DNA from: Aquibium oceanicum | Lineage (GTDB): Bacteria; Pseudomonadota; Alphaproteobacteria; Rhizobiales; Rhizobiaceae | Assembly (NCBI RefSeq): GCF_001889605.1 | Contig: NZ_CP018171.1 | Location: 2,874,501-2,938,500, forward strand | Length of the DNA: 64,000 nucleotides | Reading direction: 5' to 3' | In this document: positions 55,205 to 56,850 of the stretch, one piece after another | Position numbering within the stretch: the first letter of the stretch is position 1 | How the letters are laid out: each line of letters begins with the position of its first letter | Made by a program: the position numbers and the translations under genes | The notes under the pieces: model-generated | What the model saw: only the letters and a program-made list of their open reading frames with translations | What the model was told of the DNA's origin: nothing | Database searches by the model: none

Positions 55205-55316
55205 TTTCCGACGGTGCAGCAGCCCCAGTAATGGCTTATAAAGCGTTTCGCGGCCTGCCGCTAGGCTCTCCTGCCCACGAGAAGACCGGCCGGCGCAGAT
55301 CGAACCCGCACGTTCC

Positions 55317-56582
55317 TCAGCTGGCGACGGCGTCCTTGATGGCTTTGACGAGGTCGGTCTTTTCCCAGGAGAAGGCGCCGTCGCGGCCGGGTTTGCGGCC
55401 GAAATGGCCGTAGGCGGCTGTGCGGGCGTAGATCGGGCGGTTGAGATCGAGATGGCGGCGGATGCCCGACGGCGACAGGTCCATCACCTTGCGCAGCGCG
55501 GCCTCGACCGCCGCCTCCTCCACCGTGCCCGTGCCGTGCAGGTCGACGTAGATCGACAGCGGCTGGGCCACGCCGATGGCGTAGGAAAGCTGGATGGTGC
55601 AGCGCTCGGCGAGCTTGGCCGCCACCACGTTCTTGGCCAGATAACGCGCCGCATAGGCGGCCGAGCGGTCGACCTTGGTCGTGTCCTTGCCCGAGAACGC
55701 GCCGCCGCCATGCGGCGCCGCCCCGCCATAGGTGTCGACGATGATCTTGCGGCCCGTCAGGCCCGCGTCGCCGTCAGGCCCGCCGATGACGAACTTGCCG
55801 GTCGGGTTGACGTACCAGTTGCAGTCCTTGGCGATCGGCAGGTCGCCCAGCGCCTCGCGGATGTAGGGCTCGACCACCTGGCGCACCTTCTTGGAGTCCC
55901 AGCCCGCCTCGAGATGCTGCGTCGACAGGACGATCTGCGTCACCTCGGCCGGCTTCCCGTCGGCGTAGCGCACCGTCACCTGGCTCTTGGCGTCGGGCCC
56001 CAGCCGGGAGGCCTCGCCCTCGCCCTTGTGGCGGGCGGCGGCCAGGAGCTCCAGGATCTTGTGGCTGTAGTAGATCGGCGCCGGCATCAGGTCCGGCGTC
56101 TCGCGGCAGGCATAGCCGAACATGATGCCCTGGTCGCCCGCGCCTTCCTCGCCCTGCCGGTCCGACGCGTTGTCGACACCCTGCGCGATGTCGGCCGACT
56201 GGCCGTGCAGGAGCACGTCGATGCGCGCCTTCTTCCAGTGGAAGCCGTCCTGCTCGTAGCCGATGGCGCGGATCGCCTTGCGCGCCGCCGACTTGAACTT
56301 CGACGGGTTGATGATGGGGAACTCCTTGGCGTCCTCCAGGACGTTGCCGTCCTTGTCCTGCTTGAGCAGCGACTTCGGCACCCGCACCTCGCCGGCGATC
56401 ACCACGCGGTTGGTGGTGGCCAGCGTCTCGCAGGCGACGCGCACGTCCCAGGGGTCCATGCCCGCCTTCTTCGCCTCCCGGTAGACCAGATCGACGATCT
56501 CGTCGGAGATGCGGTCGCAGACCTTGTCGGGATGGCCTTCGGATACGGATTCGCTGGTGAAGAGGTAGTTCGAGCGCGCCAC
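55317..56582 (-). CDS. metK: S-adenosylmethionine synthetase
   Basis: This 421-aa enzyme makes SAM from methionine and ATP. It begins [31 protein letters not shown] and has [38 protein letters not shown] and [18 protein letters not shown]. The start codon is GTG 56582, set by GAGGGG at 6 bp. It is longer than the E. coli enzyme (384 aa), with extra loops around residues 75 and 115 as in other alphaproteobacteria. A stem-loop and a promoter candidate sit directly upstream. trmB, often its neighbour, is absent. Confidence 0.97.
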
Positions 56583-56601
56583 GGGTGTCCCCTCAAGAAA
56601 G

Positions 56602-56630
56602 GCGCGAAACGGCGGGATGCCGTTTCGCGC
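56602..56630 (-). promoter_or_regulatory. metK leader stem-loop, candidate SAM-responsive element
   Basis: On the minus strand GCGCGAAACGGC, loop ATCCC, and GCCGTTTCGCGC make a perfect 12-bp hairpin. Seven bases (CTTTCTT) separate it from the metK ribosome binding site GAGGGGA. The loop bases TCCC can pair with GGGA of that site, so a pseudoknot could hide it. From memory, the compact SAM/SAH riboswitch found before metK in Rhodobacterales shares the AACGGC-NTCC core and the loop-to-ribosome-site pairing. The full pairing of the stem here differs. A plain 5' stabilising hairpin is the alternative. Confidence 0.5.
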
Positions 56631-56637
56631 GCGCGTC

Positions 56638-56666
56638 TGTTAGCCGAGCCCGTCACCATGCGTCAA
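56638..56666 (-). promoter_or_regulatory. Putative metK promoter
   Basis: TTGACG (-35; the upstream C gives CTTGAC, the alphaproteobacterial form) and CTAACA (weak -10) are 17 bp apart on the minus strand. CATGC and GCATG flank the -35 as an inverted repeat. Transcription would begin near 56631, at the first base of the leader stem-loop, giving a leader of about 48 nt. Confidence 0.45.
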
Positions 56667-56850
56667 GCATGCAGACGCCCGCCTCGCCCAAGTCCATCAT
56701 ACCGGAACCCGCCGAAGAACCCGCGCCACAGAAGACGAAACCTCACCCGCACAAACGCGGATCAGGCCTCCTCGTCGCCCAGCGCCATCACCAGATCGAC
56801 AAGCTTGCGGCGCACGAGACGTCGCCGGCAATCGACCGAGCGTCCCGAAC

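Follow-up and report, generated by a model that had tools for sequence, protein, structure and literature searches.

A metK leader hairpin in Aquibium oceanicum: probably a clade-specific mRNA element rather than a SAM/SAH riboswitch

Does the hairpin in front of the metK gene of Aquibium oceanicum belong to the SAM/SAH riboswitches, or is it a structure of another kind? The initial annotation of the window (the whole stretch of 64 kb that was analysed) had placed a 12-bp stem with the loop ATCCC 7 nt before the sequence GAGGGGA, and we confirmed it at 56630-56602 on the minus strand. The features of the locus are as follows.

55311-56815, minus strand: duplicated block with the 3' end of xre, promoter, leader and metK; second copy at C1:719956-721459 (locus L001)
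56661-56666, minus strand: -35-like box TTGACG of the metK promoter
56639-56644, minus strand: -10-like box GCTAAC of the metK promoter
56602-56630, minus strand: metK leader hairpin, arms 56630-56619 and 56613-56602, loop ATCCC at 56618-56614
56595-56601, minus strand: T-rich spacer CTTTCTT of 7 nt between hairpin and ribosome site
56588-56594, minus strand: ribosome binding site GAGGGGA of metK
56583-56592, minus strand: possible mini-hairpin of GGG (56592-56590) and CCC (56585-56583)
55317-56582, minus strand: metK, S-adenosylmethionine synthetase, GTG start (Pfam and NCBIfam)

The arms of the hairpin, GCGCGAAACGGC and GCCGTTTCGCGC, pair over 12 bp with no mismatch around the loop ATCCC, and CACCC separates GAGGGGA from the GTG start at 56582. 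It is the only perfect stem of at least 12 bp (loop 3-9) in the 64-kb window, and 20 first-order Markov sequences of equal length contained a mean of 0.15 such stems per 64 kb. Given its base composition, the complete 91-nt leader region does not fold exceptionally well (z -0.93; 27 of 200 shuffles folded equally well or better), and any case for selection therefore has to rest on relatives. The host is a Mesorhizobium/Nitratireductor-like bacterium, and among the best 80 of at least 590 places Mesorhizobium zhangyense has the nearest named MetK, with 89% identity.

The genome holds metK twice. In the L001 copy the gene is flanked by an HTH_3 (xre-type) gene on one side and a Methyltransf_4 gene on the other, and the gene before xre is one that we take to be lnt; the copy of xre in the window consists of the last codons only. 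The two copies differ at 13 places between -233 and -92, are identical from -91 (a position 7 nt ahead of the -35 box) to +928, and differ thereafter at 3 places in the remainder of metK and at 1 just past the gene. Both therefore have an intact promoter and leader. As silent sites are identical too, gene conversion or a recent exchange seems a likelier cause than selection by itself. Immediately ahead of the duplicated block stands a gene for a phage tail collar domain protein (PF07484; 57552-56851, minus strand), which may mark how the metK copy arrived.

The initial annotation had regarded the leader as a possible variant of the SAM/SAH riboswitch, a class that the available text of PMC2864571 and PMC4239095 describes as known from Rhodobacterales only. 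A divergent member, in which ligand binding would shut the loop onto the ribosome site, has some features in its favour. The hairpin is associated with metK and sits immediately before it, as the class requires; the TCCC of the loop is complementary to GGGA of the ribosome site here and in L159; and the leader is identical to the core AACGGCUUCC in 9 of 10 bases. The core AACGGCTTCC was given correctly in the annotation, and the Rfam consensus of RF01727 contains CACAACGGCUUCCUGACGUG, but within a G+C-rich stem identity at nine bases of ten is not enough for a riboswitch. The Rfam search of the window yielded no family at threshold, and with the limit relaxed to E≤10 a stretch of 601 bases around the leader had two weak matches, both to unrelated families. 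The covariance search with the SAM/SAH model, which the annotation had proposed as a check, found no match at the metK leader, and RF01727 was not found by model search in the A. oceanicum genome, whereas true members reach 58-61 bits: in the control, 3 of 289 alphaproteobacterial genomes matched at that level, with metK directly downstream in all three. In ungapped register with the core, a C stands at the position of U23, because AACGGC here runs into AUCCC. U23 pairs with the adenine of the ligand, and with U23C SAM binding was undetectable, according to the available text of PMC7367207. The non-canonical extension of P1 (A13:C26 and A14:G25) is absent from the leader, whose stem consists of standard pairs throughout, which bears out the annotation's own caution that the stem is fully paired, unlike the known class. 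On the RF01727 searches, the control genomes and the U23 register we reject membership of the SAM/SAH class, and we consider a divergent member extremely improbable.

The comparison with relatives drew on 225 loci, in which 222 metK starts were placed (none for L034, L224 and L225), giving 209 distinct leaders. The loci were taken from the best matches to MetK or the block and from 80 stretches down the MetK similarity list, one listing being the best 80 of at least 590 places, and close relatives are therefore over-represented. We counted 124 leaders as family and 85 as other, which is no clean split into inside and outside because the latter hold 28 of L035-L062, many of the same family. The promoter boxes of A. 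oceanicum metK, 16 nt apart, are weak by consensus, and the sigma-70 consensus scan found no promoter at metK. Of the 124 distinct family leaders 58 had the pattern TTGAC-N15..21-TAAC, as did 8 of the 85 others; in the alignment described below (A2) it was present in 31 of 33 leaders. By the usual box spacing, transcription would start a few bases from the stem at most, which would give a leader of about 48 nt.

These leaders also bear on the pseudoknot between loop and ribosome site that the initial annotation had put forward. Within the genus the loop is ATCCC in both copies of A. oceanicum, ATCGG in L002, GATCGT in L003 and L007 and GATCGG in L009, so that none of the four other genomes retains the pairing. 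Among the 108 of 209 distinct leaders with a correctly placed hairpin of -6 kcal/mol or better, four Watson-Crick pairs between the loop and the ribosome-site region were possible in 9, compared with 8.4 for shuffled loops; with G-U allowed the counts were 36 and 30.4 (highest shuffle 38). We reject the pseudoknot as a conserved feature on the comparison of 9 of 108 with 8.4. A loop pairing that is neither kept in the genus nor enriched also argues against a divergent SAM/SAH riboswitch.

The hairpin itself fared differently, and the claim of a structured metK leader was upheld by pairing retained in relatives. We aligned 33 of 36 listed references, leaving out L038 and L194 (interrupted stem) and L007 (arms equal to those of L003); L127 and L145, which an earlier alignment of 29 rows had included, were dropped before this. 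Aligned without structure information, the 33 leaders had 84.7% of their stem cells paired, and sliding the partners by 1-3 columns lowered the paired cells from 88.6% to 28-56%; these percentages flatter, because the rows were hand-picked by eye as leaders of the hairpin type. Covariation was 0.278, compared with 0.156 ± 0.012 in shuffles, none of 500 being as good, and two-sided changes numbered 33, compared with 14.5 ± 2.6. Almost no variation occurs in the four inner pairs CGGC/GCCG, and the outer pairs covary. The proposed check of metK leaders for compensatory changes thus showed pairing kept by two-sided changes in these 33 hand-picked leaders. In the closest set, five distinct leaders with very small variation, every stem pair was held through G-U changes and one change of G-C to A-U, and its covariation was matched by 285 of 500 shuffles; adding L160, L038 and L194 weakened the consensus.

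An inverted repeat can also serve as a DNA operator, here one at the transcription start that would be bound by a repressor, for example the xre-type product. The repeat at the promoter is perfect, and an HTH_3 gene adjoins metK in L001, the original copy. The arm sequences, however, change between genera while pairing is retained. In a symmetrical DNA site there is no reason for G-U to be preferred to A-C when one side changes, yet the inner pairs 24-28 of the 33 leaders contained 13 G-U cells and 1 A-C cell. Over all eight pairs there were 23 G-U and 8 A-C cells, 7 of the latter in the outer pair 22-41. This excess, which rests on related rows, favours RNA over a DNA palindrome, and we consider an operator unlikely. 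An intrinsic terminator, causing very early attenuation of metK, is suggested by a scan that flagged exactly this hairpin and its tail (1 found, 0.2 expected). The T-rich stretch is no weaker in leaders with the SahR-type site discussed below, with a mean of 5.4 T per 10 in 10 such leaders compared with 4.4 in 106 others. As it is at least as strong there, it seems to be part of the ribosome site, and we did not accept it as the mark of a terminator. An antiterminator would also not fit ahead of the hairpin, and early termination appears decidedly unlikely. We conclude that the hairpin has most likely been kept by evolution as an RNA structure.

Regulation of metK in related bacteria gives this structure its context. 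In the available text of Leyn and co-workers (PMC4239095), the SahR core regulon includes metK and SAM-SAH riboswitches occur in Rhodobacterales only, and the available text of PMC8877191 reports that metK of Ensifer aridi is preceded by a SahR motif. The letters of the published motif are absent from the text of PMC4239095 available to us, and the SahR-type pattern used here, ATAAA-N6-TTTAT, was inferred from the metK leaders; with at most one mismatch it occurred in 38 of the 209 leaders and in none of the 209 when shuffled. In the metK leader of A. oceanicum the best match to it has 6 mismatches of 10. The genome contains the exact pattern at two places, neither of them at metK. One immediately precedes the probable ATG of an ArsR-plus-methyltransferase gene, to which we give the name sahR as a candidate; the other lies within an open reading frame that presumably encodes an acyltransferase. 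Relatives of the sahR-candidate protein (E≤1e-60) were found in 373 of 394 family genomes, so the SahR-like regulator has mostly not been lost. Since the palindrome was found in 0 of the 33 aligned leaders, this branch generally keeps the regulator and has metK promoters without its site.

Hairpin and palindrome were also compared in all 208 leaders of sufficient length, without any choice by eye. Against dinucleotide shuffles, a hairpin reached p≤0.05 in 62 of the 169 leaders without the palindrome, the other 107 missing that level, and in 11 of 169 of the stretches upstream of the promoter. Where the palindrome lay upstream, the count was 2 of 29, both in the leaders and in their upstream stretches; where it overlapped the tested stretch, 3 of 10 leaders had such a hairpin. 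The contrast was weaker by whole-region energy: z≤-1.5 was reached by 56 of 170 palindrome-free leaders (22 of 170 upstream stretches) and by 8 of 38 leaders with the palindrome (14 of 38 upstream stretches, where the palindrome itself lies). Counted by clusters it was 40 of 84 versus 3 of 26 (Fisher p 0.001), a rough correction for kinship with energies uncorrected for composition.

A model built from the 33 leaders recovered the two metK copies in the A. oceanicum genome at 61.5 bits, the next best match having 23.2 bits (E 0.19). The order-wide search matched 8 of 297 genomes, in 2 genera, and is poor evidence of absence because scoring covered 18 first-look candidates in each genome and because family leaders that had gone into the model were themselves missed. 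No consensus leader hairpin emerged when 21 leaders of a different type, those around L062 (Falsochrobactrum), were aligned. A longer leader type occurs in L004, L062, L161, L165, L170, L173, L177, L179 and L181, apparently with two successive hairpins and the conserved linker CTACTGTGTTTCC or close to it. Outside the family, strong hairpins also precede metK in L111, L112 and L113 (Pseudovibrio, Roseibium); they measure 10-13 bp and lie some 29-32 nt upstream of the start codon.

A second pairing may involve the ribosome site. GGG-N3..5-CCC was present in 101 of the 124 family leaders, whereas shuffling of the bases that follow GGG gave 7.6 (highest 14). It occurred in 26 of the 85 other leaders and in 7 of 15 family leaders with the SahR-type site; among the 76 open reading frames of at least 250 aa in the window, taken from the first start, 2 had it. 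In the 33 leaders the GGG/CCC helix varies by G-U and by one unpaired cell, and no two-sided change occurred. Its predicted pairing was 0.38-0.75 in three versions of the transcript and 0.01 with the coding sequence down to 56520 included, in which case the ribosome site pairs elsewhere. The mini-hairpin is a lead, not a result, although masking of the ribosome site is plausible, with the CCC before the start codon, not the loop of the hairpin, as the conserved partner.

From these comparisons we consider it rather probable that the structure is a real, clade-specific hairpin of the metK 5' leader that acts on the mRNA and is not a SAM/SAH riboswitch. At the start of the metK mRNA a stable hairpin would take up the greater part of the leader, which would be about 48 nt long; a U-rich stretch and the ribosome site come next. 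The likeliest role of such a hairpin would be to set metK output after transcription start: it would shield the 5' end from degradation and keep the region ahead of the ribosome site in a constant state in which initiation can take place. It may have accompanied the loss of SahR control at the metK promoter. A regulated version of the hairpin would be an independent leader element, responsive to SAM or bound by MetK, that has taken the place of SahR, and its position before metK, the enrichment of hairpins where the SahR-type palindrome is missing, the nearly fixed inner pairs and the fact that in the A. oceanicum genome metK alone carries it are consistent with this, as is the statement, in the available text of PMC8877191, that MetK of Sinorhizobium meliloti binds RNAs. 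The loop and flanks vary, however, so that the 33 leaders share no conserved unpaired pocket, and we judge an independent element of this kind quite unlikely. Equally doubtful is the fuller proposal that the Mesorhizobium/Nitratireductor leader senses SAM, directly or through MetK on its own mRNA, has replaced the SahR operator and masks the ribosome site by CCC. Our search of open papers found no described metK leader in these bacteria. The available text of PMC4239095 and PMC8877191 credits metK to the SahR regulon in Rhizobiales, and this branch has a hairpin instead of the palindrome. Whether control of SAM synthesis has here moved from the DNA to the RNA level can be tested directly, even if the hairpin is a plain stabiliser.

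The leader can be compared with three known systems. With the SahR-controlled metK promoter of Rhizobiales, as described in the available text of PMC4239095 and PMC8877191, it shares the gene and the family, and the genome has a SahR-like gene with the palindrome before its likely start, but the metK promoter here carries a hairpin and no palindrome. Like the SAM/SAH riboswitch (RF01727), it is short, lies directly before metK in Alphaproteobacteria, has a loop that could reach the ribosome site and contains the AACGGC and UCC of the core; unlike it, the leader is fully paired, has C at the U23 register and a loop pairing that is not conserved, and does not match the model. Stabilising hairpins at the 5' terminus are known, for example in the ompA leader, and the metK hairpin resembles this type in being stable, at the predicted 5' end and free to vary in sequence, although its inner pairs are more fixed than a pure clamp needs.
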